Shown: positions 2,815 to 34,062 of the stretch, one piece after another
Layout of the letters: the number at the start of each line of letters is the position of its first letter
Numbering within the stretch: the first letter of the stretch is position 1
Source of the DNA: Marasmius tenuissimus
Lineage: Eukaryota; Basidiomycota; Agaricomycetes; Agaricales; Marasmiaceae
Reading direction: 5' to 3'
Assembly (NCBI GenBank): GCA_029532415.1
Contig: JAQOTA010000015.1
Location: 806,001-870,000, forward strand
DNA length: 64,000 nt
The notes under the pieces: model-generated
Seen by the model: only the letters and a program-made list of their open reading frames with translations
Databases searched by the model: none
What the model was told of the DNA's origin: nothing
Position numbers and translations under genes: made by a program

Positions 2815-3292
2815 TTAGGGGCCAATACACTGCCTTATAAAAAGGCATTGTGTTTCCACAAAGGAAATTATCAGTCGGGAATCAAACTTGTTGACGTTAC
2901 ATTATCTGTAACTTACTAAGATATGCATTTGTGAATTCATTAAAGTTATCAATCGCAAAACCTCAGCCTCTTTCATTGAGGTATACCCTTATATCTGGAT
3001 GGGAAGGAAATGATTTACCGGGCTGGTTAATCTTCATAGTTCCCGAATCCAGTTTCACGGCCGTGAAATTCTGCTTGGTCCCCCGTGTACGTGGTCATAT
3101 GTAGAAAAGAATGACGAAGGATTAGGCCTCTACGAGGCGGGAGCTGAACCTTAATTGACTAGTTGCTCCTGCCCATCAATCCATCAAACGCCATACCGTA
3201 ACTGGCCACGCGAGTCTAGGCTAAACCTAAAGGTTCAGCTAATGAATCGATCAAAGCGCGGGCGCTTGGGGATTCTGATCTCGCCTTCCACC
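2815..3292. other. Stretch without a recognisable gene
   Basis: AT-rich sequence between the old LTR and the F-box gene. Its first bases (TTAGGGGCC) resemble the bases following the 5' LTR of the full Copia element (TTATGGGCC), so it may begin inside an internally deleted second element. The last ~100 bp presumably carry the F-box gene promoter; no clear TATA box is visible. Confidence 0.5.
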
Positions 3293-25847: not shown

Positions 25848-25854
25848 CATGAAC
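25848..25854. repeat. Target-site duplication, left (CATGAAC)
   Basis: CATGAAC occurs here and at 35303-35309. The uninterrupted paralogue C has the single sequence CACATGAACGATCG at the corresponding place (47188-47201). Confidence 0.92.
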
Positions 25855-26283
25855 CCCAACGAGATGTCCGTGGGTTAATTCGGACAACCCAGGACAAAAC
25901 CAGGTCAATTGGGGCTACTTCTGACAATTTTGGACTAACCGGCGTCTGACGGACAAAGATAAACCACCCTTATCGTCCATCTTCCCGTAGCTCACAGCCC
26001 TTCCACCACTTCAAACGACTTGAATTTTTGCGAGAATCTCAAATTCGACGCAGTGCAAACGCAACTTCCGTCAAATGTCAAATTTGTGGTCCGTGCGTTC
26101 AATTGTTCCTTGTTTGGCACCCGTCCGTTTCTCACATATACTCGCATCCACAACCCAGTCTCCTCATCATTTCTTTCTTCCCCTCCGCCATCATCGACAC
26201 TCCCTGCCCTTATCATATACTATCGCCAACACACCGGTATGCTGTCTCGAGCGCGTTTGTGAGGATCAGGGCAACATAGCAGC
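25855..26283. other. Left arm of the outer element
   Basis: Terminal repeat followed by sequence with a plus-strand open frame from 26075 (MSNLWSVRS..) that stays open to the 15-bp direct repeat. Joining it to 33213 continues the same frame (MKHKDGPQ) up to a GTGCGT donor at 33235, whose partner acceptor TGCTTTCAG ends at 33297 with a TACTGAC branch motif before it. This suggests an ancient exon cut by the inner insertion. Confidence 0.45.
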
Positions 26284-26298
26284 GACTAGGATGATGAT
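26284..26298. repeat. 15-bp direct repeat, left
   Basis: GACTAGGATGATGAT, identical to 33198-33212; the two copies bracket the helicase/DUF6589 segment. Confidence 0.8.
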
Positions 26299-26327
26299 AG
26301 TCTGTATCAATTTCCCACCGTTTAGCC

Positions 26328-26845
26328 TGTTGAACATGATGAAAATCATGTGATACACTGTTGACGTGTTGTTTACGCGTCACACTATTTATAGAGCTAC
26401 GCCTCTAGAACACTTGCGTTCTCATGCAAGTACTACGTCTCTGTCTACGTACCTTACTACGTACATCTAGTTTCATCATATATGACACTATAGACAGTCG
26501 CTATCCAATAGCATAAGTAGAGCCTTCAATAAGTGAGGCAAACACGACTATGCTCACCAAGCATACTACCATTCATGGTAGAAGTACTTACACAGTACTA
26601 ATGTCTTTTACGCCTTTAGGGCCGAATACCTACTTCTAGTAGTAGTTTCAGTTGGTGTAATACTCATTACATGTACCAGAAACTTATGTATAAAAGACTG
26701 GACAAAAGGCCTTAAGCCTTAGGACAATCTACTCGATTATCACCTCTTCTCAAGCATCTCAAGACTACAAGAACACTCTGTGTATTACCCATGTGAGGTT
26801 TACTTCGTTATACCCACTGTGCACTTTAACTATGCTGGCTCATCA
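26328..26845 (+). mobile_element. Copia solo LTR (518 bp)
   Basis: Starts TGTTGAACATG and ends GGCTCATCA; flanked by TAGCC on both sides (26323-26327 and 26846-26850), a perfect 5-bp target duplication. Contains a TATA box (GTATAAAAG near 26688) and a GTGAGG donor 53 bases before its end, like the other LTRs here. No internal element sequence remains, so the copy was lost by LTR-LTR recombination. It interrupts the left inverted repeat of the helicase/DUF6589 segment and is therefore younger. Confidence 0.92.
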
Positions 26846-26956
26846 TAGCCGTACCTCAAAATATATGTCACATGTGTTTCACGTGTAGTCTGATTATCAG
26901 GAGATAACGATAAGACATTGACGCGTCTGAATATTCTCATCGCCTCGACGCGTCTC

Positions 26957-29240
26957 ATGCATGAAACACCACCTTCCCACACCATTATTCCCTATAATTC
27001 GCCAGAAGGGCGACTTCTCTTTCTTGAAATTGCACGAAGTCACCTTCCCTTTGTTCCTCATGACTTCAGTGTTGAGGTTGCGGCCGAATTTTTTGACCAG
27101 CAAGATATCCTTGTCAGGACAGCGTGTGGGTCTGGGAAAACAGGAACTATCGCACTCATTGCAGTCTTGATGACAGAAATCAAGAAGAACCCTGCCCGCT
27201 TCCAGCAGTTCAACTTGTGGTTTCCTGACAATCCCGCTATCCTTGTCATCTGTCCAACCGACGCACTTGAAGTCAATATTGTGAGAGAGTTCTTCATGTT
27301 GAAAGTGCAGACTGACTTATCTGAAGCAGGAGGAGAAGATGTTGAAGATGAAGATTCCTGCAGTTGCGCTGAACTCAAAGATCATTCACAGTCATATGCA
27401 TAATGGGAATCTTGGAGAACTTTGGGAGAAGATTAGGACGGCAACTATCATTCTGATGTCCCCCGAGATGCTGCAGTCCCAACCAGTACGGAAACACCTA
27501 GCGTTGGACCAGGAGGTGTCAAAATCAGAGTTCAAGTCCAGATGCACATTGCTAGTTTGTGACGAAGCTCACCTTGTATATGTGTGGGGGCGCAACTTTC
27601 GTGAATCCTTCAAGAACATTGGATTGATGCGCGTTCACCTCCCCTTGACACGCTTGCTGTTGTTGACAGCGACACTTCAAGATGGTCCAGCACTTGACTT
27701 TGTGCTTCCATCCTTTGGATTAGAGACCAAAAAGTTTATTGACATGCATCGATCGAACCTCCGCCCCGAGATACAAGTCACCACCTCTCTTTTAGAGTCA
27801 AATCTCAATGCGGCACGATCCTTCCCCGAATTCGACTGGATAATGCCACTGCTCAGAATCACCATTGTCTTTTGCCCAGATTGGCAACTGGCAAAGTGGA
27901 TAACACTGCACCTCCAGCGGAGTTTTTATGGGGCTGGGAGCAAGGAATGGAGGCGCGTACGGAAATGGGATGCGACAAACGACAAGGAAACCTACGATGA
28001 AGAGACACTGAAGATGATTGAGTCATTGGATCCTGAAAAAGAGCGTCTCATTATCGTATGTACCGTGATTCTGATGGTCGGAATGGACTTCAGACATGTA
28101 CAGAGGATTCTGAACATCAACTGCATGGATTTTGACGAGGAGTTGCAGAAAGAAGGCCGGCTTCTTCGAGAGATGGACAGCTTTCTCAAATGGGCAGAGT
28201 TGTATGTCTATGTCTCAAAGGCGGTCATGAAGACTGTGCGAGAAACAGTGGAAGCTCACAATAAAGGAATGGATAGTACGAAGGATGATCGGAATTCTGG
28301 TGCTTCCCGAAGCTGTCCCACGCTTGACATCAATTACGCTCATCATCTCGTGGCAGAGTGCCGTACAGAGGTGCAGAATACTGTCTATAACAACCCCCCT
28401 CTCAACAAATACCTGTGTGGTTGCCCTGTGTGTGTCCAGAACCGCACCCCTCAACATCAGACATCACTCTCTTTGGACACTCCCCCTCCGTGTCTCTGTT
28501 CTGGGTGTCAACCAGGGATGTGTGAGCGAGACCTTCGGTCCCTTTATCGAGAAAACACTCTTCACGCCAGCGCAGAGGCTACTAGGAAGGGGTTTGGACT
28601 TGGTGTTGTGGAGGGACCCCCAGAGTATGCTGATGAGAATCAGGATGGTGCCGCTTCGGAAGTAGTTGAAGAAGAGATCAGAGGAATGACTGCTGCCAGT
28701 CAGGACATAATCAATCAGCATCTTGTCCAGCTTGATGCAGATCTCTTTCAGGCAGGAACTGGAAATATCAGAGGCTTTCTCACCCCCGGGATGTTCATTC
28801 CTTCACCTGTCATCTCCATTATTACCGAGAAATTCCTTGCTATTATCACAGATTGGGATGGTCCAGCACGTCTCTCGATGGAGCTTGAAGACTACGACAT
28901 GGATCCAAGATGGCTGGAAGCCATCTGGAAGACTATAACTCAGAAGATATACCCAGCAATCAAGCAGTACCACCAACAACGGGAACTTGAGAATGAGCAG
29001 CGCAAGCGGGAGCAAAAGCGTGCGAAATTGGAGAAGGAAGTGAAGGCGTTGAATGAGCAGGATACTCGGACTCTTGTGGTATTTGAGCCGATACTGGAGG
29101 AGGAGAAGGTTACCAACAAATTGACAAAGGATCATTTAACCTGGGAGCTTCGATGGCACAGGCTTTGGGATGTGGATCTCCCAAAACCATACAAGCTGAA
29201 CAAGGCAGAGTTTATTTCTGTTATTCGTGGTGCAGTGTGA
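26957..29240 (+). CDS. RecQ-like superfamily 2 helicase, 744 aa
   Basis: Two exons, 26957-27280 and 27330-29240, with a 49-bp intron (GTGAGA..GCAG) in phase 0. Start chosen at the first ATG of the frame (MHETPPSHTIIPYNSPEG). Helicase motifs: Walker A ACGSGKTG at residues 56-63, DEAH at 186-189, motif III TATL near 221, and a RecQ-type end with GMDFRHV and a Q-x-x-GR-x-x-R motif VI (QKEGRLLR near 380). After the helicase core comes a Cys-rich stretch (CGCPVC near 470 and CLCSGCQPGMC near 495) that could bind zinc, then a charged coiled coil rich in Glu/Lys/Arg. ATP-dependent unwinding of DNA is expected. It faces the DUF6589 gene, stop to stop 92 bp apart, within one insertion. It is open throughout, unlike its partner. 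Confidence 0.88.
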
Positions 29241-29332
29241 AAGTTTACTGAGGAGCTATATACAGTAGAAGATGTACGTGAAATATTCACTATTAGACAG
29301 GATTCAAATTAATCGCTATGTAGTATAGTATG

Positions 29333-32300
29333 CTAAATATCAATCAACCAGTCCTCATCATCATCAGTCTCATATCCATCGGGTGCGGCTAGTAGTTCTG
29401 CTGGATCAGTCAGATCCTCTTCTTCATCCAGCTCATCGCTTGCTCCCGACTCGAGTAATGAGATCGTGAGGCAGGCATCTGCATCGACATTGAGTTCTTC
29501 AGTGACGATGTTTCCGTCCCTCACAGTGTTTGACCAAAGTGGTGCCAATCGAATGTCGGTGTCATAAGAATTATCCATATTGGTGTCATCCTCCTCGTTT
29601 CCCACTCCGGCAGTAGGTGGTAAGGAAGAGTGCTTGGAAACAGTGACATCACGGTCCAACATCATATTTGTAGTCCACTTGTTCAACAATCCATCCTGTA
29701 CGTCTTTGAACCCCTTCCGTGACTGGCTCTTGTATATGCCATGATGCTTCCCGCCTTTGATCTGGTAACGTGAAAACAGATGTACCTCTGCACGACGTAG
29801 CTTCTCCAGTAAGATCCACAGCTCCGGGTCTTGTGAAGGCCTTGAGTGTCGCTGACTACGATGTTCAAGCCCAACCCCACTGAGGAGATCCTCCTTGAGC
29901 CGCCGGAGTTGTCCTACACAACGTGCAATGGCCTCTCGGATAAAACGCTCACCAAACTCGGCACCCTTATGCTGCACAACCGCCTCAATGATACGCTGGA
30001 AGAATTCCTGCAGTAGGTCACAGCATCGGTGTGTTCCAGGCTTCCCAGAAAGACTGGCGACCATTGAGGAGAGTAAGGCTTCAGCGAGCTCAGGGCTCGA
30101 CTCGAAGCAGATATCAATGATGTCCTCCAAGATGTACTGAGCATACTTCTTATGCCCTGATGCGACAAATGGGAAGAACAGGGCAATTATTTGCTCCCAG
30201 ACACGACTAACATCACCTTCTGCCACTGCCCAAACACACTCCTGTGATCTCATGACTTCCCGCATAAACTCTTTCTTTGATGCGAGTACAGCATCGCCAG
30301 GCCCAATAGGGGTCTCTCCATTGTTGAGAGCATTGAGCGCTGAGAGAAGATCAGGTCGGGGTTGATCGGTAGTCTTGGGAAACGTGGGCTTTTCCGTCCC
30401 TGTTGCAGCATGGTATATTGCTTCCTCGGTTGTATAGCGCTCGTAAAGCTCATAGGCAAACCTCTCCAAATCAGCCAGGGAGGGGAGCTTCGATGATGAA
30501 TGGAGGGCTTCAACAATGTCGGTCACGTCATCATGGCCAGAGACATCAACGCCAGACTTTCGTGCATGTTCTTCGAGATAGATTCTACCGAAAGCTCAAT
30601 TAATAATCCGAACTCATGAGATAATGAAGAGGCTTACCTCCAGCAGCTGAGGATGTCTGCATCGAGAACCAGGTACAAAGCCTCACTCGCTTGCTTGTAG
30701 TTATATTTTCCTTGTTCCTTTGAGAGCTTGCGATCAATCGACGACAGTAGATGTCCGAGACTGGACATGTCAGACCCCGCAGGGTTGCCCATGTGAAGAT
30801 CAATAATGCGCGCATCATTGGTCCAAAATAGATGCCACCACTGGAGCTTGGGGTTGAGAAAGCAGAGACTATGGAAAGGGGAATCATGGAATTGGCGGTG
30901 GGAGATGATCCTGTGGAGAAGCTCAAATGTAAGCCCATTGCCACCTATGGGAAGCATACGTTTCAGAAAGCAGGCCCCTGTTTGGCCCACACTCTTCAAA
31001 AAGTCAAGGACACGTTCGAGGAACTCGGGCAGTTTGGTTTTGCTACCACTCACGGTTGGTAGAGTGAAGCATTCGACCGGTTCATTGGGAACCTTTTGCC
31101 GCTTCCCAACTGTCTGCAGGCGCTCGTTCGCAAGGTCTTTGAGACCCTGAAGCCGCTGCGCGTAATTCCCGAGTACCCACATCCACTGGAACGCAAAGAT
31201 ATGGCACTCGTGCTCTGAATTCACAAGATGAGACAGCCTCTGGGCTGTGAGTCTGTTTCGCTGAAAATTTGCACGGTGTCTCTGCTTGTCGTCGTAGTCA
31301 AAGACACAGCGGGGATCAAGATTCGCTGAAAGCCGGCGCAACCAAACCGTTGCTGCCATGCCCAAGTTCATGAAATTCGGGCGTCCGAGTCGCGCAGAAC
31401 GGTGTCAAATGTAGTTCTGGATGTTATCAATAACAATCCAAAACCAGTAGCCCGGATCCCAACAGAGATATACCACCTGTCTGGCAGCTTGTTGACCAAG
31501 GCCATACAACCCACTGGCGACAGTATTGTATGCAGGTGTATTTCCGACGTGTGAGTCATATCGGAACCTGTCGAATGAAACCAGAGAGACCATATTGAAT
31601 AATCCCTCAAGCATCGGTCCAAGACGGGCATGAGGCGAGCGGCTGAATGTCAGCTTTGATATTGCGGTGGAAACAACCTAGTAAGGCCATCAGAGTCAAA
31701 AACGGCAAAGAAGAGCTAATACTGGGACATACAGCTTCTACGGGCCGATAGGCTCTGGCTTTATCTCCCCTTTTACCTTGCTCGGGGGTTGCAACCTTTG
31801 TCAAGAGACCCCAAAGCAGGTTCTGACAACGTTTGTGGATGTTTGTGACTGCCTGATGAGTCTGCGAGGTAAGGTTCTTCCAATCGATGACAGCAACATG
31901 CTGTTTCGTTGGGCGGCGTTTGGTGGGGATATGGACATGCAGTCCCAATGATGGCTGGACTGCGACACGAGCTTGGGAAATGAGCTCGCGTTGCACCATC
32001 TGCGCAGAAAAAGAGGTGATAGCAGGACGAACAGGTTTTATTTCCTGGTAAGGGTGCTCAAGCAAGAACATGTCGGCAGAGTCCTTGTGAACCCGTCCAT
32101 AGGGATGGCGGGCCAGCCGGTCCAGCCAGCTTGAGACTGTTATGTTGCACATACCACAGACGAAGGCCGAAACAAGACCTGCACGGGATTTGAAGCATCT
32201 CTGGGCTTCACCGTGGTCATCCCAGGAGGCTTTTTCTTCAGTCGTAGGCGGACAAAGCATCTGGTATGTATACAGGGGAAAAGGGAGCCCGACACTACGG

Positions 32301-32938
32301 GAATACGCAGAAATACGGTGCAGGCGGATCTCCAAGGGAAGGGAGCGCTTGTTGGTGTGATCATACGGGGAAGGCACGGAGTTATTATGGTTGGACGTAG
32401 GCATCGGTGACTGACTGGGTGAGTTTTGATGTGGTAGGTCGGAGGAAAGACCCCTCTCAGCAGTTTCGCAGTCAGTCTCGGGGGGTTTTCGTTTGGTAGC
32501 ACGGTGTTGGTGGGCGGGCATGGGAAGAAATTGGGCCATGTGGGGGGACTGTGTGTGGGATACCTTCTGTTTTTTTGGTGGAGGCTGGTCCGGAGTTTCA
32601 AAAATAAGGGAGCTGGAAGACAATGTTATCGGAGTGGCTGGAGTTGATGAAGAACTGCTACGCAATGGATTAGAAGGAGGTGGTGGGGTGGAAATAGGAT
32701 CTGAAGGCCCCGATGGGTCATTCTCGCAATTAGAGATTATAATACGATGATTTTGAAGCTTAGGTTTGACATTTGGTCCTCGAGGTCGCCGCCGTTTCAC
32801 GGTATTAGTCGGATTGAAGGAGTTGTCCACTGTTTTAATCAGGCTTTGGTCGGATAATGGAACACGAGTGGAGGGTGTTTGGCGGCGAGATGGTGTCGCA
32901 GGGTTCGCAGAATATGAAGAAGGAGAAAGAAAGTTCAT
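29333..32938 (-). pseudogene. DUF6589-domain protein gene, 1165 codons, one nonsense codon
   Basis: Three exons on the minus strand: 31733-32938, 30638-31677, 29333-30584; introns 55 and 53 bp, phases exact. The N-terminal ~150 residues are Ser/Pro-rich and basic (KRRRPRGP), suggesting nuclear targeting. The central and C-terminal regions carry the DUF6589 signatures: DNIQNY, LGMAATVW, HIFAFQWMWVLGNYAQ, then VWEQIIALFFPF, LLQEFFQRIIEAVV and RFIREAIARCVGQL, ending in an acidic tail (DDDEDWLIDI). DUF6589 is a widespread basidiomycete family without known function. An in-frame TGA at 31405-31407, right after DNIQNYI, sits where relatives have a basic residue and is most simply a CGA to TGA change. 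Everything else is open, so the damage is recent. Confidence 0.85.
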
Positions 32939-33197
32939 TATTCAAGCATAATTAATGTCTAGTTGAGGGAGAGGAGAGTAAACGAATGGTTAGGAGGATG
33001 GAAGCTGAACGCGAAGTCGCAATCGGTGAATTCAACAAACGTCCATGTGCAAAATTTACATCACATGACTTATCTTATTACTATATACGGAAAACTAGGA
33101 GACCCACAAGGGAGGTACAGCTAAGGGACCGCGTTTTGCAGCAGACCCTTATATCATTTGCGAGCGTAGCGAGCTGATATAAGGTCTGCCTAGGGGA
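32939..33197. promoter_or_regulatory. DUF6589 upstream region and right end of inner element
   Basis: Holds the DUF6589 promoter. 33112-33146 is the inverted partner of the left end: reading the reverse complement, GTCTG, a 17-base spacer and TTAGCTGTACCTC match 26300-26327 plus 26851-26857 (GTCTG, 17-base spacer, TTAGCCGTACCTC) with the solo LTR removed. Confidence 0.6.
33141..33189. repeat. Strong hairpin at the right end of the inner element
   Basis: Arms GCAGACCCTTATATCA (33141-33156) and TGATATAAGGTCTGC (33175-33189) pair over 15 bases with one bulged C; the 18-base loop contains two GCGAGC direct repeats. It lies a few bases inside the right 15-bp direct repeat. Confidence 0.85.
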
Positions 33198-33212
33198 GAC
33201 TAGGATGATGAT
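33198..33212. repeat. 15-bp direct repeat, right
   Basis: GACTAGGATGATGAT, identical to 26284-26298. Confidence 0.8.
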
Positions 33213-34062
33213 GAAGCACAAAGATGGTCCTCAGGTGCGTATCGCGGCAACTATAGTCTCAATAAATGGTACTGACGCGTTTTTGCTCTGCTTTCAGTCA
33301 CTTTAAACATTGCTGTAACAAAGTAGAAGACTTCGTGAAGATACATACAGCCCGAAATCAACCCTGTGCTCAGCGGCTCCGTCAATGAACTAGTCGAGTT
33401 GAACACGTCAGCGATGTGGTGTTTAAGCTAGCGAGGTGTGGTGACTGTACGGCACGAAGGGCCCTCGACTTATCTATTTCTCTAGGCTCTCCAACACGTT
33501 GAACTATAGACACACCGCCGGAATTATAGCCGATGGAAGAATCGACAACGGCAAGCCAACAAGGGTATGTCTATTTTACCCCTTCTAGACTCTATGCTGC
33601 TTGCTTATATCTTGACATTCCTGTTCTAGTTTCGTGGATGTTAGAAGCCTCCTTCAGTCAGTGCGGGGCAAGCTGGAGCCTGGGGGTTGGTTGTGCAGGA
33701 TCTTACGCATGGTGGTCTGGAGTTTGTGCTTAAAGTTGTAGGTCAGTAGCTAGGCATGTACTTCTGTAGCAGATGAATACCATGTTGAATTCACTGGACA
33801 TATAAGAGTGATTTGGTACAATTTGAACAACCGAACCAACCCTGCATCAGGAAACAGTGAAAGTTGTACGTTGATCTCACATACCTGCTCCGTAAGTGAT
33901 GTGTAGTAGATGTAGAGATCATGTCACTATGTAGCGTTAGCGCCAGTGCCATGGACTCTCCAACTTGTCCGTAGGCGCCTGGTATGGGGTCAGTATAGTC
34001 TGTATCACACCACCAAGCAGTACAAGGCAAAACGTGCTGTGTGTACACTCAGGGTCATCCAT

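Follow-up and report, generated by a model that had tools for sequence, protein, structure and literature searches.

The founding description of the AcademH transposons is reportedly that of Kojima (2020, Mob DNA 11:15). As summarized in a portion of PMC10045372, AcademH elements encode a helicase and have 9- or 10-bp target duplications, a feature that the paper relates to the helicase; in the AcademX elements of the Academ superfamily, a nuclease replaces the helicase and the duplications are of 3 or 4 bp. Excerpts of other papers list AcademH as low-copy in Basidiomycota, Ascomycota, and Mucoromycota (PMC10799480), count Academ among the recent types (PMC12210899), cite the founding AcademH paper (PMC9970103), and report that putative MULE and Academ elements of non-autonomous type are widespread in Marasmius oreades and that KDZ and Plavaka elements are common in mushrooms (PMC8290104). 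No function has been assigned to the Pfam family DUF6589 (PF20231). A limited literature search found no mention of DUF6589, and its sole match for "PF20231" was listed as a nanophotonics paper.

The window, the whole 64,000-nucleotide stretch of the Marasmius tenuissimus genome analyzed here, contains a RecQ-type helicase gene and a DUF6589 gene in convergent orientation (Table 1). The short introns and the size of the genome are consistent with a basidiomycete. Together, the helicase and DUF6589 genes form the coding part of a multicopy mobile element with TAGNCT ends and a 9-bp target duplication. Such mobility had been proposed in the first-pass annotation of the same sequence and is borne out by empty sites, conserved ends, 9-bp duplications, and many copies.

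Table 1. Features of the transposon copy in the window
Feature	Position	Strand	Details
Transposon	26298-33202		6905 bp including the later solo LTR; delimited by empty paralogous sites, termini, and 9-bp duplication
Target duplication, left	26289-26297		GGATGATGA
Target duplication, right	33203-33211		GGATGATGA
Left terminus	26298-26303	+	TAGTCT
Right terminus	33197-33202	-	TAGTCT as read on the - strand; the copy runs TAGTCT...AGACTA
Solo LTR	26328-26845	+	518 bp; later insertion; ~97% identity to LTRs in L043 and L028
Duplication of the solo LTR	26323-26327 and 26846-26850		TAGCC, 5 bp
Left counterpart of the inner inverted motif	26322-26327 + 26851-26857		Split by the LTR
RecQ-type helicase gene	26957-29240	+	744 aa, frame open; exons 26957-27280, 27330-29240
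DUF6589 gene	29333-32938	-	1165 codons; exons 32938-31733, 31677-30638, 30584-29333
Inner inverted motif	33112-33124	-	TTAGCTGTACCTC
Subterminal hairpin, right end	33141-33189		Arms 33141-33156 and 33175-33189

The closest solved relatives of the helicase are WRN, RECQ5, bacterial RecQ, and BLM. Its gene has a single intron (27281-27329). Of 37 frame-keeping candidates, two yield 744 aa, and the one selected from these has the stronger donor and a sequence resembling a branch site. The stop codons of the two genes are separated by 92 bp (29241-29332). The earlier gene models, a 744-aa helicase and a 1165-codon DUF6589 gene ending 92 bp apart, have thus been retained, with one intron in the former and three exons in the latter. 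A Pfam scan matched PF20231 to the second and third exons of the DUF6589 gene in the window, with E values of 5.6e-37 and 2.7e-43, respectively. The gene model contains an in-frame TGA (31407-31405), which was absent from the first-pass annotation, and carries GN in place of a conserved GD (codon 30939-30937); a second motif, DN, is retained (the D codon starts at 31428). Given the TGA and the loss of GD, the window copy looks dead.

DDE transposases have an RNase H-like fold and a triad of acidic residues. Among the relatives of the DUF6589 protein, the DN motif is conserved and is preceded by a hydrophobic stretch, the GD motif has D in 25 of 28 rows and N in the other 3, a His residue 35 positions past GD is found in all 29 rows, and a candidate Glu is present in 24 of 31; the identity of the third acidic residue is uncertain. 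This set of residues suggests that DUF6589 acts as a DDE-type transposase, and the role of candidate transposase previously assigned to it still appears apt: in a multicopy element with conserved ends, it would be the likeliest one. No other Pfam family matched DUF6589 significantly, either in the window exons (E up to 0.01) or in three members of the family (E up to 10), and no significant match was found among the solved structures in the PDB. Structure prediction for the second exon of the window's DUF6589 gene, made with no alignment, gave a pLDDT of 35, too low to be informative about the fold. No relatives were found in viral contigs in two scans (alignments A1 and A2) or in bacterial and archaeal genomes in one scan (alignment A2).

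The limits of the window copy follow from a 15-mer, GACTAGGATGATGAT, that occurs exactly four times in the 71-Mb genome: twice in the window (26284-26298 and 33198-33212) and once each in the loci L001 and L002. Both of these loci match the two flanks of the window insertion (95.0% and 93.5% identity for L001; 93.0% and 94.1% for L002) and run continuously through the single 15-mer, with the element absent; they are paralogous empty sites of the window insertion. The host flanks at 25854-26298 and 33198-33845 are part of a repeat that has at least these same two loci as paralogues. The 15-mer consists of GACTA, the 9-bp duplication GGATGATGA, and a T. On the left, GACTA is host sequence that equals the right end of the element; on the right, it is the element end itself. 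The 15-bp direct repeat described earlier is therefore present, but the duplication comprises only the 9 bp of GGATGATGA, the rest being chance identity. A 15-bp target duplication was also rejected by comparison of copies, which have constant ends TAGNCT/AGNCTA and 9 bp duplicated.

The window element measures 6382 bp once the solo LTR and one of the two TAGCC copies are subtracted. The LTR had already been recognized as a solo element, and its 518-bp length and TAGCC duplication agree with that assignment. The inverted inner sequences, likewise noted before, are present on both sides, the left one being interrupted by the LTR. Elsewhere in the window, positions ~2000-2480 resemble, by eye, the end of a Copia-type polyprotein.

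Brackets of 9-bp duplications and TAGNCT...AGNCTA ends were detected in 11 of 13 element loci in a scan that required matching flanks, and in 0 of 13 each time the right flank was shifted, by 50 distances. The duplicated sequence varies between sites; 10 of the 11 duplications are perfect and that of L035 has one mismatch. In L046, an 8-bp duplication is possible as an alternative. The scan of 13 loci found no duplication in L042, because its helicase-side end lies outside the fetched stretch, or in L045, which is unexplained. The copies L038 and L039 share 99.4% identity across 7039 bp and differ in flanks and duplications. The loci L040 and L041 (C30:693799-707629) are two head-to-tail copies, the first of which has no DUF6589-side hairpin where the two meet. 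One 9-bp duplication encloses the entire 13.8 kb, as would be expected from joint transposition of the dimer. In L046 (8455-8524), ~70 bases of the DUF6589-side end occur twice, with target-like sequence between them.

The ends of the full elements are shared by short non-autonomous relatives. For the divergent lineage (defined below), the DUF6589-side end was found at 33 places (0 in the control), and the helicase-side end at 19 places with at most 2 mismatches (3 in the control); 3 of these 19 (L079, L083, and L084) look unrelated outside the motif. The sequences of L081, L082, and a fragment in the window diverge inside the hairpin; the fragment, at 3201-3218 on the - strand plus ~40 bases inwards, derives from the helicase-side end of the divergent lineage. 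Among nine short or internally deleted elements in which both ends were compared, six have perfect 9-bp duplications, two are inverted copies whose duplications have been exchanged with each other, and one has non-matching sequences. The two inverted, internally deleted copies are located at C20:60600-62557 (ends L061 and L073) and C20:76082-78039 (ends L062 and L074); exchanged duplications are expected if recombination between them inverted the intervening ~13.5 kb. In L050 and L060, the DUF6589-side ends continue into helicase-side hairpin sequence and resemble fusions or template-switch chimeras.

A genome search with PF20231 produced 98 matches, merged by hand into 43 DUF6589 places, and two helicase queries produced 31 and 44 matches, similarly merged into 40 helicase places. 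A RecQ-type helicase lies within 10.5 kb of 34 of the 43 DUF6589 places (within 6 kb of 33), compared with 0.51 pairs expected by chance; conversely, 34 of the 40 helicase places adjoin DUF6589. The remaining 9 DUF6589 places have no detected helicase. The members of all 34 pairs are on opposite strands, 26 of them tail-to-tail (convergent) and 8 head-to-head (divergent). The tail-to-tail helicase neighbor anticipated in the first-pass annotation therefore holds for the pairing and the opposite strands, but not for the orientation of these eight. That annotation would have abandoned the transposon reading if DUF6589 genes had turned out to be single-copy and syntenic, with neither a helicase neighbor nor conserved termini; instead, they occupy 43 places, 34 of them paired, and have shared ends. 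In a FastTree tree of 31 rows, which sampled all divergent copies except the eighth one, at C30:454 kb, the seven included form one clade (support 0.999). Since these seven group together, the tree suggests a single change between the convergent and divergent gene orders.

Unlike the left end of the window copy, the right end contains a subterminal hairpin. In 14 of 22 ends, the 110 bases next to the terminus contain a perfect stem of 10 bp or longer, against 19 of 1,000 random stretches from the same loci; this comparison is limited by the non-independence of related copies and by the element ends in the control pool. The 14 stems start 11 to 21 bases from the terminus. Hairpins are present at both ends in all five divergent rows (10 ends), whereas four of the six convergent elements have a hairpin at one end each: the DUF6589 side in L035 and the window, and the helicase side in L036 and L047. 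The L037 stem is 8 bp, and the 110 bases at either end of L046 contain no stem of 10 bp or more, with a stem-like repeat seen by eye deeper inside. Stem sequences differ strongly between lineages. In an alignment of six related helicase-side ends, out of 19 such rows (the stems of more distant lineages not being alignable), 2 of the 14 stem pairs have changed on both sides with pairing kept, and the other pairs include one T-G, one mismatch, and one gap. Such covariation lends modest support to the maintenance of pairing. The loci L048 and L049 (C69:1132849 and C69:1265741) represent the same insertion in a duplicated host segment, with shared flanks and duplication; the DUF6589-side hairpin of L048 has been lost from L049.

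Taken together, these data make it likely that the window contains one broken copy of a DNA transposon with two genes that most likely belongs to the AcademH lineage, with DUF6589 as the DDE transposase, the RecQ-type helicase as its helper, and derivatives moved in trans. The DUF6589 protein would make the cuts at the ends and link these to target DNA cut with a 9-base stagger, and the end-only short derivatives would be mobilized in trans. The helicase, encoded on the opposite strand, might open or process the ends, or the gap left behind, probably aided by the subterminal hairpins, which hint at a folded intermediate of the transposon ends. A more specific proposal, tentative and rather doubtful, is that end recognition or processing depends in part on DNA shape, with the RecQ-type helicase folding or unfolding the hairpins during DDE-type transposition by PF20231. 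If so, PF20231 would be the transposase of a hairpin-assisted, helicase-dependent cut-and-paste mechanism. A limited search found neither DUF6589 as the AcademH transposase nor hairpin ends in print; the additions made here are the putative transposase role of PF20231 and the lineage-variable subterminal hairpins observed. Should that role be correct, the DUF6589 genes at the 43 places in this genome can be annotated as transposon genes. The hairpin ends offer a direct test of why such transposons carry a helicase.

Alternatively, the element could represent an unnamed superfamily of its own, made up of DDE transposons that carry a helicase, with an AcademH-like stagger and an independently acquired RecQ-type helicase. 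In its favor, DUF6589 is only a putative relative of the Academ transposases, and the word "hairpin" is absent from the searched text of PMC10045372 and PMC10799480, which is weak evidence. However, both the helicase and the 9- or 10-bp duplication of AcademH are found here, so that this explanation is unlikely. It is far less probable still that the helicase itself mobilizes the element in a Helitron-like rolling circle, with DUF6589 as an accessory or regulatory protein. Helitrons combine a PIF1-type helicase with a rolling-circle Rep domain, produce no target duplication, and have a hairpin near one end. The hairpins near the ends, the tandem dimer of L040 and L041, and the presence of the helicase in most copies would fit such a mechanism, but here the helicase is RecQ-type, the TAGNCT ends are inverted, the 9-bp target duplications are consistent, and the Pfam scans of the window proteins found no Rep domain. 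Helitron membership was rejected on these grounds. The chance tail-to-tail placement of two ordinary host genes in a duplicated region, for which the 9 of 43 DUF6589 places without a detected helicase might speak, is contradicted by the empty sites, duplications, multicopy ends, and non-autonomous derivatives and can be dismissed.

The AcademH-like two-gene transposon was also compared with other known kinds. Crypton and Starship elements use a tyrosine recombinase and make no random-sequence target duplication; they were rejected because the Pfam scan found no recombinase domain and the 9-bp duplications vary by site. KolobokH elements duplicate TTAA and were rejected given the 9-bp duplications of variable sequence. 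KDZ and Plavaka are also large DNA transposons of Agaricomycetes, but their Pfam transposase domains are absent from the DUF6589 matches. A 9-bp duplication is typical of MULEs, from which the window element differs by its helicase partner; MULE membership was rejected because PF10551 is absent from the Pfam matches of the window exons (E up to 0.01) and three DUF6589 members (E up to 10). AcademX shares its superfamily with AcademH, but its nuclease and 3- or 4-bp duplications, as given in PMC10045372, are unlike the window element. AcademH is described as low-copy in the phyla listed above, in contrast to the 43 DUF6589 places here. Features of AcademH shared with the window element are a helicase gene beside the transposase gene, a 9- or 10-bp duplication, and occurrence in Basidiomycota. 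The helicase is RecQ-type and lies near 34 of 43 DUF6589 places, and 11 of the 13 loci carry duplications of the described size, one of them imperfect, against none of 13 in the control. Because the helicase and the 9-bp duplication fit what the excerpt of PMC10045372 states for AcademH, the earlier view of an undescribed transposon is probably wrong, and the window element is probably a member of AcademH, an assignment based on the helicase and the duplication size.
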